Shown one piece after another: positions 10,252 through 18,507 of a DNA stretch of 38,202 nt (the first letter of the stretch is position 1; every line of letters starts with the position of its first letter). A program made the position numbers and the translations under genes. The notes beneath the pieces were generated by a model. That model ran no database searches. It was given only the letters and a program-made list of their open reading frames with translations, and was not told the DNA's origin. This DNA is from an uncultured Roseiflexus sp. (GTDB lineage Bacteria > Chloroflexota > Chloroflexia > Chloroflexales > Roseiflexaceae), in NCBI GenBank assembly GCA_937935075.1, contig CALGYB010000145.1, positions 1 to 38,202 on the forward strand, written 5' to 3'.

Positions 10252-13200
10252 TCACCGATTCCCTGCCTGTTGCTGTTCGAGCATCCGTTTCGCCGCCGCC
10301 TGTAGCGCTTGGACGCGCTCCATCTCGACACCCGGCACTTTTGCCAGCCGGGTATAGATGCGGATTGCCTGTTCGTACTCTTGCCGGCGCATGAGCGCAT
10401 CACCCAGCTGGAACAGATTGTCGGTATCGTTCTGGTCCAGTCCGTAGATCTGATGCATCTCGGCGATAGCGTTATCCAGATCGCGGTGATGAAGCAGGAT
10501 ACGAATAATCTGCTTCTTTTGTGCGATGGCTTCACGGGTCATGCCGGCCAGCGTGTACATGAACGACAGCCACTGACGCGCTTCGATATCGTTCGGTGCG
10601 ATCTGCACGATTCTGTCGTAGAGGACGCGCGCCTCTTCCTGCCTGCCGAGCGTCCAGTACACCTCAGCCGCCTGCTGAAGGTTGGCAATCGCGTCCTTGA
10701 TCTGCCCTTCCTTCCGCTGAAGTTCAGCGACGCGCGTCAACGCTTCGATGCCTTTATCCAGGTAGCCGCGCCGGATATACATTTTCGCCAGGCGATGGCT
10801 GATCGGGATATTGTTGGGCGCCAGGCGCAGCGCATTTTCGAGCGCCTCAATCGCGCGATCCAGCATCTGGCGCTGCTCGTAGTGGGTCGCCAGTTCGTCG
10901 AGTTGCGCCAGCGCTTCATTCAAACGCCCCTGCCGGAAATAGATGTCGGACAGTTTGGTGTAGATCGCGCGGTCGTAGGGCAGGAACTGTTTGGCTTCCT
11001 GCAACGCGCGCTCGGCGCTGGCGAGATCGCCGACCGCAGCGTAGGCTTCCGCCATGCGGCGCACGATTTCACCCTGGGAAAGGGGAGTCGAGAACGGATA
11101 CCGGGCGTTGTCCGGCGGCGGCGATGCGGGAGGAAGATCCAGGGCGCGCTGAAGCTGGCTCAATGCCTCGCTTGCCTGACCGAGTGCGATATGGCTATCT
11201 GCCAGCGCCTGATAGACAAGATGTGGTGTCAGCATGGGATCGCTCTCGGTATTGAGCAGTTCGAGCGCCTGCTCGAACTCCAGCAGCGCCGATGGATGCT
11301 GCTCTGCCTGCTGCTGAATAATGCCCAGAAGATAGTGCAGGATCGGGAGATCGGCAACCAGCAGCGCGGCGCGGTACTCGGATTGCACGTCACTCAAGCG
11401 TTGTGGTTGCTGTTTGATCTGGTCGAGCAGTGTCGCCAGCGATTGCCAGACGGCGACGGGTTGCTCCCCCATCATTGCCAGCGCCATGTTGATGCGCGCG
11501 ATATTGACCGGATTCTGCTGGTCGAGTTCGAGGGCGCGCCGGAACGCGACCAGCGCTGCTTCGGTGCGGTCGAGTTTCAGGAGCGCCTGCCCATACTGCG
11601 CATGGAGGTCGGCGTTGGAGGGGGACCATTGCAGGGCGCGCCGATACTCCTCGAGCGCTTTGGTCGTTTGCCCCATCCGAAAATACGCGCTGGCAACCAC
11701 AGCCAGTTGCTGCGCCGCTTCGTCGTTGCGTCCTTCAGCGCGCAGCAACTCAGCCAGCCGTGAACGCGCCATGATCGTATCGGGTGACAGTTCGATCAGC
11801 CGATAGTAGACATCAATAGCACGCCGGGGTTCATTGCGCGCTACATACGTGTCGATCAAGAGTTGATACTTGATCAGCGCTTCGTCTTTGCGCCCATCAC
11901 GCTCGTAAATTTCTCCCAATCGCAGATGGATTGGCAAATAATCCGGGTTCAGCCTGATCACTTCCATACAGGCGTCGTTGGCTGCCAGCATCAACCCCTG
12001 CTCGACATACTTTTCGCTTGCCAGCACATACCGTTCACAGATGTCATCCAGTCCGGTTGTGTCGAGTGGTGTCACTGGCTTAGCCGGAACGTGTTCGGCA
12101 GGTGGCAGCGTTTCAAGGACTGCCAGGGGATCGACCGACTCGATGGCGACGGATGGGGTTGCTTCGATGCGGTCGTCTGATGTCTGCGGCTGAGGCGACC
12201 GCAGAAAATCGGTAATGGGCCGAATTTTCCCCCACGTTTCGGGCATTGGACTTTCGGGGGAGGTTTCGGGTGCAGGGACGGATGGCGATGCGGTTAACGC
12301 GCCGGTGCCGAGCGTGCGAAGTTTGGCGAACATATTGCGCTCGGTCAGGTCTTTGGCTTTCTGGCGAAACTCATCGGCGCGCTCGCGTCCCCAGCGCTTG
12401 CCCTGCAGGAAGTGCGCCAGCGTCGAGTAGAGCGTTGCCGCGCGAGCAATGTCGTCGATCTGGATGTAGATCTGCGCCGCGCTCTCGTACATCTGGATCA
12501 TGTCATCGGCTTCGGCGCGCCCGATCGACTCTAGCGGCAACAGACGAATCGTTTGTTCGTACTCATGCGCTGCTTCCGGCAGTTGACCCAGCGCCTGGTA
12601 CGCCTGACCAAGCATGTAATGCGCCGACAGGGCATATTCCGGGTCGCCGGCGGCGCCCTGTAGCAGTTCGATGGCGCGCTGATACTCGCCGCGCTCCTGG
12701 TAGAGCAATCCCAGGCTATAAAAGACGTCGCTGCGATCAGTTCCGAGTTTGAGGGCGCGTTCATACTGTTCGATGGCGCCGTCGATATCGCCCGCCTCCT
12801 GACGCTCGTGCGCCTGAGCGACGATTCGCTCGATAGCGAGGTGCGCGCCGCGCAAGCCGCCGGCGCCGATGATGGGCAGGGAGGTTGCATCAGGGGCGGC
12901 GGTCGCCGCCTCGATGGCCGACTGGACGGTGGTTGCCAGGGCATCGTGGAGCGTCGCAATCAACTCTTTGGCTTCACGGTTCTCTGGTTCGCAACGCAGC
13001 GCGGTTTCCGCCAGATCCGCCGCCTGTTCAAGTTGCCCGCGCGCCTGATGGCGCCGCGCCAGTTCGAGATAGTGAGTTGCCGCCTCTGCTGTCGCGTTAT
13101 GGTCAGCGAGCAACTGCGCTAAACGCACCCGCTGATCGTCGGCGTCGGGTTGCAGGCGTAGCGCCTCGCGCAGGGCGTCGATGGCGCGTGCGGCCAGTTT

Positions 13201-13527
13201 GCGGTTCATCTGTAGATCGGCGAGTTGCACATAGGCGGCGGTTGCCGCCTTCACATCGCCAAGACGCTCGTGGGTGCGCGCCAGATATTCCAGATAGAAC
13301 GGATTACCGGCATCGATGCGACGCAATTCATCGAAAATCTGAAGCGCCTGCGCATACTTTGCCGTGTTGAAGAAGGCGACAGCGACAGCCGAGCGCGCGT
13401 CCAGGTCCTGAGGGAATTCTTGCAATGCGCGGGCTGCCTGCTTCAGCGCCTCTTCCCAGTTCATGAGCCGCGCTGCTTCGCGGCTTTGCTCCATCGCACG
13501 GTCGAACAGTGCACGGTTGCCTGGCAT
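10252..13527 (-). CDS. Large tetratricopeptide repeat protein
   Basis: A 1091-residue protein built almost entirely of 34-residue TPR units from end to end, for example GDIDGAIEQYERALKLGTD and GQTTKALEEYRRALQWSPSN. A Pro-rich, low-complexity linker around residues 440-480 splits it in two. There is no signal peptide or membrane segment, so it is probably a cytoplasmic scaffold. TPR domains bind other proteins; the partner and role are unknown. The ATG at 13527 is chosen for the AGGGG seven bases upstream; a GTG further up at 13611 would add 28 basic residues. It precedes cdaA by about 150 bases in the same direction. Confidence 0.9.
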   Translation of the reverse strand: MPGNRALFDRAMEQSREAARLMNWEEALKQAARALQEFPQDLDARSAVAVAFFNTAKYAQALQIFDELRRIDAGNPFYLEYLARTHERLGDVKAATAAYVQLADLQMNRKLAARAIDALREALRLQPDADDQRVRLAQLLADHNATAEAATHYLELARRHQARGQLEQAADLAETALRCEPENREAKELIATLHDALATTVQSAIEAATAAPDATSLPIIGAGGLRGAHLAIERIVAQAHERQEAGDIDGAIEQYERALKLGTDRSDVFYSLGLLYQERGEYQRAIELLQGAAGDPEYALSAHYMLGQAYQALGQLPEAAHEYEQTIRLLPLESIGRAEADDMIQMYESAAQIYIQIDDIARAATLYSTLAHFLQGKRWGRERADEFRQKAKDLTERNMFAKLRTLGTGALTASPSVPAPETSPESPMPETWGKIRPITDFLRSPQPQTSDDRIEATPSVAIESVDPLAVLETLPPAEHVPAKPVTPLDTTGLDDICERYVLASEKYVEQGLMLAANDACMEVIRLNPDYLPIHLRLGEIYERDGRKDEALIKYQLLIDTYVARNEPRRAIDVYYRLIELSPDTIMARSRLAELLRAEGRNDEAAQQLAVVASAYFRMGQTTKALEEYRRALQWSPSNADLHAQYGQALLKLDRTEAALVAFRRALELDQQNPVNIARINMALAMMGEQPVAVWQSLATLLDQIKQQPQRLSDVQSEYRAALLVADLPILHYLLGIIQQQAEQHPSALLEFEQALELLNTESDPMLTPHLVYQALADSHIALGQASEALSQLQRALDLPPASPPPDNARYPFSTPLSQGEIVRRMAEAYAAVGDLASAERALQEAKQFLPYDRAIYTKLSDIYFRQGRLNEALAQLDELATHYEQRQMLDRAIEALENALRLAPNNIPISHRLAKMYIRRGYLDKGIEALTRVAELQRKEGQIKDAIANLQQAAEVYWTLGRQEEARVLYDRIVQIAPNDIEARQWLSFMYTLAGMTREAIAQKKQIIRILLHHRDLDNAIAEMHQIYGLDQNDTDNLFQLGDALMRRQEYEQAIRIYTRLAKVPGVEMERVQALQAAAKRMLEQQQAGNR

Positions 13528-13672
13528 GGAAGACCCCTGATGCGGCAGTGGCGAATATGCCACTCCCTTGCGAGAGCGTTTGTGTCTCCTCTTGCGCGAT
13601 GGATCGCACAAGAATCAGGGATAATGATAGCACAAAACGGCGTTATCAGGGAATGATCGCGCGTCCGGCAAT

Positions 13673-14506
13673 CTATTTCAGGCGGCGTTGCGCGCCGGCA
13701 ATCGGGTAACGTTGCGCAATCGGCAGTCTGCGATAATCGGCGGCGTCGATAATGATATGTTCTTCGCAGAGTGCGCGGTCGGACATGCGCGAGAAGATGC
13801 GCGGGTCGATCTCTTCGGGTTTGCGGTTGCTGGTAATGACCGTCGGCAATGCAAAGTTGTACCGATGATTGATGATCTGAAACAGTTTTTCGCGCGCCCA
13901 ACTGGTCGTATTTTCGGTGCCGAGATCATCGAGGATGAGGACGTCCGCCTCACGAATATCCTCGAAGCGCTGATCATACTCGATCTCGCTCGATGGTCCG
14001 AACGTCGAGCGCAGGTGGTCGAGCAGGTCGGGTACGATGGCAAAGAGCACGCGGTAGTGGTTTTGAATCAACTGATTGGCGACAGCCGCCGCCAGGTGGG
14101 TTTTACCGCACCCATAGTTGCCGAACAGAATGAGCCAGCCGCGCGGCTGGCGCGCATATTCGAGCGCACGCAAATAAGCGCGACGAACGCCAGGGACGTT
14201 TGGGTTGAAGGTTTCGAAGGTCTTATCGAGGAACGCCGCCAGGTTGCTGATTTCCAGCAGACGCGCCGCTTCGCGTTGCTCCTGCTCCGCCATTTTACAA
14301 ACGCATGGAAAGAGTTTTGCGAAGTCGGGATGCCCGAAGGGCACCGCCTTCTTGTAGAATCCCGCTCCTCCGCAGTACGGGCAGACGGCGCTACTGGAGG
14401 TCGGAGACGTCGCTGCCGCGGCGGAAGAGATCGCCGTAGGCGCCACTGATGTATTTCTCGACGTCGATAGGTCGGTCGGTTCGATCCTGCGCATCGTTTC
14501 GTCCAT
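13673..14506 (-). CDS. DnaI/DnaC-type helicase loader ATPase
   Basis: A 277-residue AAA+ protein expected to load the replicative helicase. After a Ser/Thr/Ala-rich start comes a probable zinc site (CPYCGGAGF followed by FPCVC), then Walker A GNYGCGKTHLAAAV, Walker B VLILDDLG, and a sensor region TVITSNRKPEEIDPRI. This layout matches DnaI of Firmicutes and DnaC/IstB relatives. The ATG at 14506 has GAGAGGTGGG upstream, so it overlaps the preceding dnaD-like gene by 116 bases. It is not next to any transposase, which argues against an IstB function. Confidence 0.9.
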   Translation of the reverse strand: MDETMRRIEPTDLSTSRNTSVAPTAISSAAAATSPTSSSAVCPYCGGAGFYKKAVPFGHPDFAKLFPCVCKMAEQEQREAARLLEISNLAAFLDKTFETFNPNVPGVRRAYLRALEYARQPRGWLILFGNYGCGKTHLAAAVANQLIQNHYRVLFAIVPDLLDHLRSTFGPSSEIEYDQRFEDIREADVLILDDLGTENTTSWAREKLFQIINHRYNFALPTVITSNRKPEEIDPRIFSRMSDRALCEEHIIIDAADYRRLPIAQRYPIAGAQRRLK

Positions 14507-15110
14507 GGGTCGCCCACCTCTCGAGTATCTTCTTGACGTAGCGCCAGGAGCGGGCGTTGGCGCGCACCGCTTCTCGCATTGCATCCTCGATCCAGTGCGC
14601 CGGGTAGCGCTCTTCCGCTTCGCGCAGGTCATCGAGCAGCATGGGGGTCACCAGCCCGATATTTTGCTCGTACAGCGTGATCAGCGACGGGCGATCATCG
14701 GGGAGCGGCGGGTTGGGTGCAAGTGCTGCGCTCGCCTGCCCGACCTGCTCGACCCATGCACGGTTTGCAGCGGTATTCACCACGTACCAGTTGATGTTGC
14801 GCGCGCCGTCGGGCAGGGCGACGTGGAGGAGCGTCGTGCGGCGCACGGCGGCGTCGAGTCCTTCGGCGAGCAATTCTTCGGGCGGGCGCAGCCGTGTAAT
14901 GGCGCGCAATCCGCGTCGCAGCACCCGATCGGTTGCCAGTTCGTCCCAACTGATCCGCCGTGGCGCCGGTCCCCGCTGCCGGCTGAGCCGGTAGAAGACG
15001 TGCAGCGTGACTTTGAGTTCGCTGGGAAGCGTGATCTGTGGCAATACCTCGGTGAACAACTCACCCGGCAGTCCTACCAGTGCGTCGGTTGTGAAACCGG
15101 TGAATGCCAT
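14391..15110 (-). CDS. DnaD-domain primosome-like protein
   Basis: A 239-residue protein with an N-terminal winged-helix-like part (residues 25-110, LPSELKVTLHVFYRL) and a C-terminal DnaD/DnaB_2-type helical domain near residues 155-210, seen in YEQNIGLVTPMLLDDLREAEERYP-like sequence and the SWRYVKKILERWATHG end, resembling the YxxIxxILxxW motif of DnaD. In Firmicutes DnaD works with DnaI to recruit the helicase at origins. Its partner gene overlaps its 3' end and dnaB is about 470 bases upstream, so the whole loading apparatus is grouped. GGAGCAG precedes the ATG. Confidence 0.85.
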   Translation of the reverse strand: MAFTGFTTDALVGLPGELFTEVLPQITLPSELKVTLHVFYRLSRQRGPAPRRISWDELATDRVLRRGLRAITRLRPPEELLAEGLDAAVRRTTLLHVALPDGARNINWYVVNTAANRAWVEQVGQASAALAPNPPLPDDRPSLITLYEQNIGLVTPMLLDDLREAEERYPAHWIEDAMREAVRANARSWRYVKKILERWATHGRNDAQDRTDRPIDVEKYISGAYGDLFRRGSDVSDLQ

Positions 15111-15154
15111 CCGCTGCTCCGCTTCCAGGTCAACGCAGGTACGTTAGACCAGGG

Positions 15155-15182
15155 TAGAACATGCATGTTCTATGCCATTATA
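15155..15182 (-). promoter_or_regulatory. Promoter with palindromic operator for the dnaD-dnaI pair
   Basis: On the - strand a perfect TATAAT (15177-15182) lies 45 bases before the transcript's coding start region. Just downstream, centred on the expected transcription start, is a perfect 18-base palindrome (15155-15172, core AGAACATGCATGTTCT). A -35 element is not obvious. The arrangement is that of a repressor operator blocking initiation. The regulator is unknown; the half-site AGAAC recalls some LexA boxes, but the six-base spacing does not fit the usual one. Confidence 0.6.
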
Positions 15183-15260
15183 CACGACCAGCAATGATGC
15201 GCACTTCGTCCGGGGACGCAGGAACATCGCCCGTACCGGCGTCCGCATGCCCGCAGTTAA

Positions 15261-15321
15261 GCCCACGCCGGCGGGCTTGGCGCCTGTAGCCTGCGGCTTC
15301 AGTCGCCGGGCGGACTCATGC
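15261..15321. repeat. Dispersed 61-bp intergenic repeat, copy 1
   Basis: This segment recurs nearly unchanged at 15378-15438, differing at about five positions. It contains small inverted repeats (CGCCGGCG, and CGGCTTCAG with a C-rich complement). A partial inverted copy is found at 20601-20630. No coding potential. The gene-free stretch 15111-15490 consists mostly of these repeats and the promoter region. Confidence 0.85.
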
Positions 15322-15377
15322 GTGGTCATGTGACCCATCATGGTTGTTGCGCACATCATCCAGCATCGCCCGGTACA

Positions 15378-15438
15378 GCCCGCGCCGGCGGGCTTGGCGC
15401 CCGTAGCCCGCGGCTTCAGCCGCCGGGCGGACTGATGC
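15378..15438. repeat. Dispersed 61-bp intergenic repeat, copy 2
   Basis: Second copy, in direct orientation, of the repeat at 15261-15321, 56 bases further on. The flanks differ, so the repeat unit is sharply bounded. Confidence 0.85.
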
Positions 15439-15490
15439 CACTGCGCAGTCATGCGTCCACGACACGCCTGCCGGGATGCGTTGACCCTAA

Positions 15491-15579
<89 letters not shown>

Positions 15580-15580
<1 letters not shown>

Positions 15581-16914
15581 TAATACCCCTCCGGCGTGCG
15601 ATAGGTCAGATCCATGAACCGCGTTGTCGATGGCTCGAAACGCATCGGCACAACGCCGACCGGACCGTTGCGATGTTTGGCGATATGTATCTCGGCAATG
15701 CCTTTTTTGTCGGTATTCGGGTCGTACAATTCTTCGCGATAGATGAACATCACAATATCGGCATCCTGCTCGATCGACCCCGACTCGCGCAGATCGCTCA
15801 GCACAGGCACGTGGCTGGTGCGCCCTTCGACGGCGCGCGAAAGTTGCGATAGCGCAATGACCGGCACATTGAGTTCACGTGCCAGCGCCTTCAAACCACG
15901 CGAAATCTCGCTCACCTCCTGCACGCGATTGTCGGTGCGGCGCCCCTGCATCAATTGCAGGTAGTCGATGATGATCAGGTCTACCCCGGCGCGCGCCTGA
16001 AGACGGCGCGCCCGGCTGCGCACATCCATGATGCTCAGCCCTGCCGAGTCTTCGATATAGATGGGCGCGGCAGCCAGACGTCCCATTGCGCTGATGACGC
16101 GCTCCATCTCTTCCTCGCGGAGTTGTCCCAGGCGCAGGCGGTGGGTGTCGATAGTCGTTTCCATTGAGAGGAGACGCTGCACCAGTTGCTCGCGGCTCAT
16201 TTCCAGGCTAAACACACCGACCGTTCCCTGGTATTGCATGGCGACGTTGTAGGCGATGCTCATCACCAGGCTGGTTTTACCAACGCCCGGGCGCGCTGCG
16301 AGAATAATCAGGTCACTGCGCTGTAGTCCGCCGGTGATCAGATCGAGGTCACGGAAGCCGGTCGGCAGCCCGACGACCTCGCCGCGATGTTCCTGGAGGT
16401 AGTTGATCTGCTCATAGTACGCATCGATCACCTGACCGATGTGGACAAAATCCTGGTTAGTGCGCCGCTGTGAGACCTCGAACAGAGTCTGTTCGGCGAG
16501 GTCAAGCGTTTCCTCGATATCCCGTTGCTCCTCATACCCCAGCGCGGCGATCTTGCCGCCGGCGGCGATCAGGCGGCGGAGGAGTGCGGTGCGTTCAACG
16601 ATGCGGGCATAGTACTCGACGTGGTACGAGGTCGGGACGGTATCAACCAGTTCTGCCAGATAGAGCACGCCGCCAACGGCTTCGAGTTGATTGCGACGAC
16701 GCAGTTCCTCAGCCACGGTGCGGGTGTCGGGAGGAATGCGGGCATTGTAGCATGCCAGCATCGCCTCGTAGATCTGCGTGTGCCGCTGCAAGTAAAAATA
16801 ATCCGCCTGCAACCAGGGTGCAATGGCGATGATGGCATCCCGGTTGAGCAGGATCGAGCCGAGGGTGGCTTTCTCGGCGTCGATGCTATGCGGCAGATCG
16901 GGCAGGACGGTCAT
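15580..16914 (-). CDS. dnaB: Replicative DNA helicase DnaB
   Basis: The 444-residue hexameric helicase unwinds DNA at the replication fork. Features: the N-terminal domain LPHSIDAEKATLGSILLNRDAI, RecA-like core with Walker A AARPGVGKTSLVMSIAYN near residue 207, GVFSLEMSREQLVQRLL, Walker B DLIIIDYLQLM near residue 315, and LSDLRESGSIEQDADIVMFIYR near residue 385. Length is typical and no intein is present. It lies between rplI and the dnaD-dnaI pair. The stop codon (TAG, 15580-15582) straddles the junction with the downstream MITE-like element, so the original C-terminus may have been slightly different. Confidence 0.97.
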
Positions 16915-16938
16915 ATGTCGAACGCTTCCCAGCTCTTA

Positions 16939-17052
16939 TAGCGCGATCAACCGAATGGCGACCATCTTGCGGCTGACGTTGGCTTCGACTGGCTCAGCCA
17001 ACGTCAGCCGCTCCACGTCCTTGGATTGTCCAGGTTCTGGTTAATCGCGCTA
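16939..17052. mobile_element. MITE-like element, 114 bp, with TTA target duplication
   Basis: Terminal inverted repeats (TAGCGCGATCAACC at 16939 and GGTTAATCGCGCTA ending at 17052, one mismatch) are bordered by direct TTA repeats (16936-16938 and 17053-17055). A further perfect inverted repeat, GCGGCTGACGTTGGC with its complement, lies inside (about 16969-16983 and 16997-17011). Its ends differ from those of the other element. It fills much of the gene-free stretch 16915-17229; the remainder, 17056-17229, shows nothing I can name. Confidence 0.72.
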
Positions 17053-17229
17053 TTATGTATCCCTTATCTGTGTTCTCTCATTCTCATGAAGATTGGACAC
17101 AGGTTATACTCCGGTTTTCGACAGATTATCCCATGTCTGTCCACATACTCCCTGAGAAGCGAAATGTGCCAGGGCGCGATGCCGTGGCACATTATCCTTA
17201 CGGAAAATGCTATCGAATGTCGCAGAACG

Positions 17230-17727
17230 TCAGACGGCTTCGGGATCGGGAGGAAGCTGGATCGCCCCCTCTTCGCCCTCGACGACGACGTTGACCACCG
17301 GTTCGACGCCTGCCATCAGGCGAATCGTGACCGGATAGATGCCAATGCGCTTGATCGGCTCTTCGAGTTGCACCTTGCGGCGATCGAATTCCTCGCCAAG
17401 CATTGCACCGATCTTCTCCGCAATATCACTGCTGGTGATCGATCCATACAGCCGGTCGAGTTCGCCGACGCGCGCCGTGAAGCGCAAGGTCTGCCCTTGA
17501 AGACGAGCGGCAATCGCCTGCGCATCGCGGCGCGCCGCTTCTTCGCGACGGCGTTGTGCCGCCAGGCGTTCCTCCGCCTGTTTGATCTGACCGCGGGTCG
17601 CCAGGACTGCCAGACCGCGCGGGATGAGATAATTGCGGCCATACCCGCCGGATACCTCGCGGACTTCGCCGGCAGCGCCAAGATTGGCAACATCCTGCGT
17701 CAACACAACTTTGATTTTGCTCCCCAC
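17230..17727 (-). CDS. rplI: Large-subunit ribosomal protein L9
   Basis: The 165-residue protein binds 23S rRNA domain V and has the two-lobed L9 form: N-terminal KIKVVLTQDVANLGAAGEVREVSGGYGRNYLIPRGLAV, a long charged helix with many Ala/Arg/Glu (residues 45-75), then a C-terminal lobe with LYGSITSSDIAEKI. GTG at 17727 is the start, because AGGAG is about six bases before it; longer in-frame extensions give non-L9 sequence. The acidic tail is somewhat longer than in E. coli. It precedes dnaB, a pairing seen in many bacteria. Confidence 0.95.
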   Translation of the reverse strand: MGSKIKVVLTQDVANLGAAGEVREVSGGYGRNYLIPRGLAVLATRGQIKQAEERLAAQRRREEAARRDAQAIAARLQGQTLRFTARVGELDRLYGSITSSDIAEKIGAMLGEEFDRRKVQLEEPIKRIGIYPVTIRLMAGVEPVVNVVVEGEEGAIQLPPDPEAV

Positions 17728-17818
17728 AGCAACACTCCTGAGCGGTGTTCCGAAAAAAACAATAAGGAAGCGCCGCAGCCGGCAGAGGCATCGGGCGCAT
17801 ATCAGTCGAACGCCGGAT

Positions 17819-17848
17819 ATAGTATCACACAATCACCCGACTCGTCAA
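17819..17848 (-). promoter_or_regulatory. Candidate promoter of rplI
   Basis: On the - strand TTGACG (17843-17848) and TACTAT (17819-17824) are 18 bases apart, a fair sigma-70-type match. It lies at the 3' end of the HAD gene and about 90 bases before rplI. It could give rplI its own transcript. No experimental support. Confidence 0.4.
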
Positions 17849-18507
17849 TGTGAATCGTATGCGCGAATGATTGCCAGGAGATCGTGCAATCCGTCAACAA
17901 CCGCAATAGGTTGGGGAGCGCCTGCCGGGAGCGTCGCTCCATGACGGTTGACCCAGATGGCCGGCATCCCCGCCTGTGCCGCGCCCCACAGGTCGTTCTC
18001 GGGCGAATCACCCACGAAGAGCGCCTCATCAGGCGCAACTGCCAGGGCGTTCAGCGCAATGTGGAAGATCTGCGGGTCTGGTTTGGCGACCCCGACCTCC
18101 TCGGAGACGATGATGGCGTGCATGTACGAGGCAAGGTCGAACCGCTCGATCTTGGGACGCTGTGACCATGATGGGCCATTGGTGATCAGTCCAAGATGAT
18201 AGCGTGCGCCGAGGGCGGTCAGCAATGCCGGTGCGTCCGGGTCGAGGGTGAGTGTATCGAACCAGATATCTTGATAGCGCGTAAAAGCGTTCTCAATGAG
18301 AACTTGATCGGTAATCCCCTGGGAGCGCAGGAAGTCGGGCAACTGGTTGATCCAGATCTTCGCCGTGAGCGCGAGGTGCACCAGCATCTCCAGGTCGCAA
18401 GAGGTGATGCGCGATACCTCTGCCAGCGCAATGCGCAGGCACGTGATCCAGTGCGCCTTGAGATCGTACAGGGTGTCGTCCAGGTCGAAAAGAACGGCTC
18501 GCAGCAT
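17845..18507 (-). CDS. HAD-superfamily hydrolase
   Basis: A 220-residue phosphatase-like protein with all four haloacid dehalogenase motifs: DLDDTLYD near residue 8 (nucleophile and acid/base aspartates), LITNG near residue 109, the lysine in VAKPDPQIF near residue 140, and FVGDSPENDLWGA near residue 165. The cap is the helical (C1) type. Substrate cannot be told; small phosphorylated metabolites or nucleotides are usual for the subfamily. It is co-directional with rplI, 117 bases upstream. Confidence 0.92.
   Translation of the reverse strand: MLRAVLFDLDDTLYDLKAHWITCLRIALAEVSRITSCDLEMLVHLALTAKIWINQLPDFLRSQGITDQVLIENAFTRYQDIWFDTLTLDPDAPALLTALGARYHLGLITNGPSWSQRPKIERFDLASYMHAIIVSEEVGVAKPDPQIFHIALNALAVAPDEALFVGDSPENDLWGAAQAGMPAIWVNRHGATLPAGAPQPIAVVDGLHDLLAIIRAYDSH

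Follow-up and report, generated by a model that had tools for sequence, protein, structure and literature searches.

A helicase-loader operon of Roseiflexus with a candidate LexA operator at its core promoter

Why should an exactly symmetrical sequence lie where transcription of two putative helicase-loader genes would be expected to begin? The question arises from a stretch of 38,202 bases of an uncultured Roseiflexus sp. (the window), in which a perfect 18-bp palindrome stands between a -10 element and a dnaD-like gene. An earlier note on this DNA had taken the symmetry as the sign of a dimeric repressor of the dnaD-like and dnaI-like genes, perhaps one belonging to SOS or cell-cycle control. 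The reading that we favor, with a probability of about 0.7, is that LexA, the repressor of the DNA-damage (SOS) response, has the palindrome as its operator within the core promoter that drives the dnaD-like and dnaI-like genes of Roseiflexus.

Layout of the promoter and its genes

Both the palindrome and the consensus TATAAT that the earlier note had placed ahead of it are real: from 15182 to 15155, the minus strand reads TATAAT, GGCA, and TAGAACATGCATGTTCTA (Table 1), and 44 nt separate the palindrome from the ATG of the 239-aa gene. If transcription begins at the usual distance of about 7 nt from the -10 element, it would do so within the palindrome. No clear -35 element was seen for this promoter, which was also absent from the list given by a consensus promoter scan of positions 13000 to 18000. 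No other match to the 18-bp palindrome with up to 3 mismatches occurs in the window, and an exact search found its 14-bp core, GAACATGCATGTTC, once in the genome that it comes from. In 38,202 bases of this composition, chance would give 0.18 perfect 18-bp palindromes, and the length of this one is by itself within chance; at such a place, the expectation is about 0.0005 per 100 bp. It is thus its place, together with its conservation in all six genomes of the genus, and not its length, that sets the palindrome beyond chance. A second perfect 18-bp palindrome, the GC-rich GCCAGCCGCGCGGCTGGC, lies within the dnaI-like coding region (14134-14151).

Table 1. Features around the dnaD promoter, with positions in the 38,202-base window
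Feature	Position	Strand	Basis or remark
Perfect 18-bp palindrome TAGAACATGCATGTTCTA	15155..15172	.	Window-wide sequence search
-10 element TATAAT	15177..15182	-	4 nt before TAGAAC
LexA-like box AGAAC-ATGC-ATGTT, reading toward dnaD	15158..15171	-	Matrix score 17.85, window top
Same 14-mer on the opposite strand, 2-bp offset	15156..15169	+	Product of perfect symmetry, this genome only
dnaD-like gene P0001, 239 aa, DnaD/DnaB_2 domain	14391..15110	-	Profile matches
dnaI/dnaC-like AAA+ ATPase gene	13673..14506	-	IstB/DnaA/DnaC-type ATPase match
dnaB, replicative helicase gene	15580..16914	-	Same direction, upstream of dnaD promoter

The labels dnaD-like and dnaI-like hold for both genes, as judged from the DnaD/DnaB_2 domain of the former (PF07261, E 3.8e-9; TIGR01446, E 2.1e-9) and the IstB/DnaA/DnaC-type ATPase domain of the latter, for which an ATG at 14506 was chosen as the start within a mechanical open reading frame (ORF) beginning at 14632. 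Since the dnaI-like gene overlaps the end of dnaD, the two are probably co-transcribed. Between dnaB and the dnaD promoter lie two 62-nt repeats that are 92% identical (15260-15321 and 15377-15438). Their 19-nt core, GGCTTCAGYCGCCGGGCGG, has 81 matches in the genome at up to 1 mismatch, versus 0 for the reversed control, and the repeats belong to a dispersed REP-like family.

Conservation of the box and its counterparts at lexA and recA

Within the genus, the promoters of related strains, where the earlier note had proposed that conservation be sought, all carry the box. A search with the pattern TATAATN{3,9}TAGAACATNNATGT found TATAAT-N(4-7)-TAGAACATNNATGT exactly once per genome in 6/6 Roseiflexus genomes, always at dnaD, and the reversed control gave 0 matches. 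The box therefore overlaps the core promoter in every one of them, TATAAT and TAGAAC being separated by 4 nt in the window and, in the remaining five, by 4, 4, 5, 5, and 7 nt. Its left arm, AGAACAT, is invariant; the right arm reads GTTCT in the window's genome, GTTAC in G015 and G043, GTTAT in G007 and G023, and GTCAC in G029. Perfect palindromy, that is, N6 symmetry, is accordingly confined to 1 of the 6 genomes, the window's own, and the exact symmetry that the earlier note had treated as the signal does not survive the comparison. The DNA upstream of the -10 element is largely unalignable among the genomes, save for the G007/G023 pair, which is alike throughout, and parts of the leader 3' of the box are common within subgroups. 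Given that the upstream DNA resists alignment almost throughout and that the spacing from the -10 element is not fixed, the box is kept as a unit; and with a constant left arm and a variable right arm, it appears to be the asymmetric box that is under selection, the perfect symmetry being local. These comparisons are not independent, as only six related genomes of one genus carry the dnaD site.

The earlier note had also suggested looking for the motif at lexA and recA, and it is the SOS branch of its proposal that gains: the lexA promoter carries the dnaD motif and the recA promoter a related one. All boxes were chosen and aligned by eye, and the Roseiflexus lexA box in the spacer between -35 and -10 was first noticed through a dnaD-derived pattern. 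A profile search found lexA in 5/6 Roseiflexus genomes; there was no match in G043, whose assembly is 82% complete and in which one place resembling the lexA box has no lexA gene. In all five genomes with lexA, a near-identical box, AGAACA-N4-TGTTAT, lies between the -35 and -10 elements of that gene, directly after the -35 TTGACA (AGAACAAGCGTGTTAT in G000, G015, and G029; AGAACAGGTGTGTTAT in G007 and G023). Outside the central four letters, this spacer box is identical at 12/12 letters to AGAACATGCATGTTAT of the G007 and G023 dnaD promoters. Exact matches to AGAACANNNNTGTTMT in the six genomes amount to 9 places, namely lexA in 5/5, dnaD in 3, and 1 other, with 0 in G043. A second box, CGAACAGGCTTGC, is found in the lexA start region. 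At recA, the box AGAACCTTCGTGCTATAAT, which reads AGAAC-N4-GTGC followed by TATAAT, is present in 5/6 Roseiflexus genomes (none was found in G023) and also in G045 and G051, while recA of G011 has CGAAC-N4-GTGC. Beyond the genus, a GAAC/GCAC/AAAC-N4-GT pair could be seen by eye between the -35 and -10 elements of lexA in G045, G051, and G011 and in 17/19 further lexA promoters of the order; G003 and G026 have no such pair there, and their GAAC boxes lie further downstream.

The resemblance was then expressed as a score with a 14-position matrix trained on 13 boxes from the lexA and recA promoters of four Roseiflexaceae genera, dnaD being excluded. The palindrome scored 17.85 and ranked first of all window positions (runner-up, 12.2; training range, 14.0-19.7), with a P per position of 6e-7 under a slightly different background, and 6/6 Roseiflexus dnaD promoters scored between 14.7 and 17.8. 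When the Roseiflexus lexA spacer box was left out, the window site still reached 16.4 (P 1.4e-6 per position; 5e-4 such scores expected per 200-bp region, both strands). The dnaD box thus matches the lexA and recA boxes of its own lineage within the training range, with or without the spacer box. A matrix of lexA start-site boxes plus recA gave 14.2 for the window, 13.2 for G043, and 7.9 for G029. With one made from recA, SRAP, and 54-aa-gene boxes (training range, 19.5-22.6), the same three promoters scored 8.3, 12.3, and 7.1, for which the chance expectations per 200 bp are 0.04, 0.005, and 0.06. The dnaD box is therefore tied firmly to the boxes at lexA itself and weakly to those of the recA kind, and since the recA-type matrix scores the dnaD site low, its membership among LexA boxes leans on those of lexA.

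Upstream regions were scored for 49/57 dnaD loci (7 loci were left out, as was L167, whose contig ends too soon). None of the 43 dnaD promoters from other genera of the order reached the score range of the Roseiflexaceae-type box, the highest being 10.1 in G016 (CGAACATGAATGTC), under a matrix whose boxes all come from Roseiflexaceae and which might overlook a differing LexA box of other families. The best reading would be that the LexA operator at dnaD was gained in or near Roseiflexus. In families f2, f3, and f4 (e.g., L018, L175, and L171), the dnaD promoters show no Roseiflexaceae-type LexA box; they have in common TGTGGTANCAT or the shorter TGGTANNAT, an element near the gene start that resembles an extended -10.

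Register of the box and competing readings

The consensus of the Gram-positive-type LexA operator, or SOS box, is GAAC-N4-GTTC, and the lexA boxes of the order resemble GAAC-N4-GT(T/G)(C/T), as in CGAACAGATGTTCC at lexA of G049. The dnaD box shares with this operator type the AGAAC half-site, the core-promoter position, the recurrence of the motif at lexA and of a related one at recA, and a genome that encodes a LexA with intact-looking cleavage residues. It differs in having six rather than four central bases in its symmetry (GAAC-N6-GTTC), in its right half when read in the N4 register, and in its target, a helicase-loader operon. In the N4 register, the site reads AGAAC-ATGC-ATGT, with a perfect left half and a right half that is weaker than the GTGC of recA; the right halves of Roseiflexus lexA (GTGT, TTGC) and recA (GTGC) also deviate from a strict GTTC. 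The objection in the earlier note that the half-site spacing departs from the usual LexA boxes thus holds in part, as AGAAC-N4-ATGT fits the local LexA box and its right half is weak. In the window's genome, the perfect symmetry produces an N4-register box on each strand, with a 2-bp offset between the two.

Sequence alone does not decide between the N4 and N6 registers, which allows for another regulator, one that binds with N6 spacing and that lexA and dnaD would have in common. Such a dimeric regulator would act on a true GAAC-N6-GTTC palindrome at Roseiflexus dnaD and lexA, LexA itself using N4 boxes and taking the lexA start-site box and those of recA and SRAP. The perfect N6 symmetry in the window would fit it, as would the low scores given to dnaD by the recA-type matrix and the AGAACA-N4-TGTTAT common to the lexA spacer and dnaD boxes, which is N6-symmetric in 4/5 right-half bases. 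However, that symmetry is perfect in just 1/6 genomes, other genera and families have an ordinary N4 LexA box between the lexA -35 and -10 elements (CGAAC-AGAT-GTTCC in G049), and LexA itself is the simplest candidate to bind a box in the lexA promoter. We consider this regulator unlikely.

Somewhat less probable still is a chance palindrome combined with ordinary promoter conservation among close relatives. The 0.18 palindromes expected per window, a comparison limited to one genus with DnaD proteins 91-92% identical, the likeness of G007 and G023 across the upstream region, and the leader parts common within subgroups would all be compatible with it; yet between diverged subgroups the box is retained in spite of indels, while the bases on either side of the -10 element (upstream of it, and from it to the box) have changed, and the same motif recurs at lexA. 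A structural role, in which the palindrome would fold the dnaD mRNA into a 5'-terminal hairpin, was rejected and seems very improbable. A 7-bp stem of -5.5 kcal/mol is indeed predicted in the window, but 17/200 shuffles fold equally well or better, three of the four further leaders that represent the other five genomes do not form this stem in the predicted fold (the fourth keeps 4 pairs, -0.5 kcal/mol), and the right-arm changes break pairs without compensation.

SOS machinery and a possible role in fork restart

The genome of the window carries lexA and recA genes, with TIGR00498 and TIGR02012 matches above cut-off. Its LexA has both Pfam domains (S24 and LexA_DNA_bind) and shows an Ala-Gly cleavage site, Ser, and Lys, residues that we take to act in LexA cleavage; a cleavable LexA is therefore predicted. 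The pattern AGAACNNNNDTGYTAT, which was built on the boxes described above, found 37 sites versus 1 for the reversed control in the six Roseiflexus genomes and gave a less clean result in other Roseiflexaceae (sites/control: G045, 15/3; G011, 3/1; G051, 3/1). Inspected sites precede recA and genes for a 54-aa conserved protein, an ArsR-type regulator, and an AAA_24 ATPase; another stands before the SOS-associated SRAP gene of G045, and this gene, with its box, occurs in 1/9 Roseiflexaceae genomes searched. Some of the 37 sites do not lie at a visible promoter, nor do several hits from G045, G011, G015, G023, and G029.

The 54-aa protein (MYxKxIVYDxExHDY...) has no Pfam family and is encoded at L125, L132, L134, and L156, with L154 of G051, seen by its start only, as a tentative member. 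Its promoters read AGAAC-N4-GTGC-TATACT in three Roseiflexus genomes and G011, and it is likely an SOS gene. The ArsR-type regulator has an AGAAC-N4-(A/G)TGC-TATACT box at L122 (G000:C20) and L131 (G007:C1); the gene that follows it in L122 presumably resembles superoxide dismutase, and the letters of the G007 box also occur in G015, G023, and G029, in a comparison of the box alone. As a candidate for a wider operator, the AGAACATGCATGTTCT form of the palindrome was rejected. At up to 3 mismatches, it occurs at 6-18 places per genome versus 1-4 for the reversed pattern; as the reversal lacks the palindromic form, it is not a strict control. Six of these or comparable places were inspected: those at L044 and L045 are inside long ORFs, that at L158 is in a 117-aa frame just beyond the end of a 327-aa frame, that at L140 (brought in by the AGAACANNNNTGTTMT-type exact-match search) is within a 91-aa frame, and those at L038 and L036 are outside listed frames. 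No regulon of this form was found beyond lexA and dnaD.

If the palindrome is a LexA operator, we infer LexA binding, repression, induction, and a replication-restart role in Roseiflexus along the following lines. In the undamaged cell, a LexA dimer on the start site would lower transcription of the loader operon, a basal supply of loader remaining, possibly also by read-through from dnaB. RecA filaments at stalled forks would promote self-cleavage of LexA and lift repression, the loader genes would rise together with recA and lexA, and the raised loader would help to put the replicative helicase back on forks that have been repaired. The DnaD and DnaI proteins of B. subtilis bring the helicase onto oriC and, following PriA, onto stalled forks (PMC10804225), and a DnaD mutant of that species triggers LexA loss (PMC10201434), which makes SOS control of a helicase loader plausible. 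Like the PriA-DnaD-DnaB-DnaI restart primosome of B. subtilis, the present locus has a DnaD-domain protein and a DnaI-like ATPase; the difference is that SOS control of the loaders is a prediction for Roseiflexus. The portions of PMC10804225, PMC10201434, PMC3323433, and PMC8565304 drawn on here do not name DnaD or DnaI as LexA targets, in a comparison that stopped short of the full list of 31-33 B. subtilis SOS genes. Among the titles and abstract openings listed by a literature search, which covered neither subscription journals nor databases such as RegPrecise, none pointed to LexA control of dnaD or dnaI or to a Chloroflexi LexA box. The operator would be of a familiar kind, and the dnaD-dnaI operon a new target for it.

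Y-family polymerases are named among the core SOS outputs in a portion of PMC8565304. No match to PF00817, the Y-family polymerase profile, was found in 9 Roseiflexaceae genomes (G000, G007, G015, G023, G029, G043, G045, G011, and G051), in a search that matched 11/14 control genomes and did not cover DnaE2-type bypass polymerases. It is a tentative and rather doubtful idea that the Roseiflexus SOS response does without Y-family bypass polymerases, the loader being raised and forks re-loaded instead of error-prone bypass. The boxes assembled here provide a first-draft LexA box for Chloroflexales. If LexA controls the helicase loader, the capacity for replication initiation and restart would join the SOS response of Roseiflexus, and, if this is true, it would become testable whether an SOS response can rest on fork restart in place of lesion bypass.
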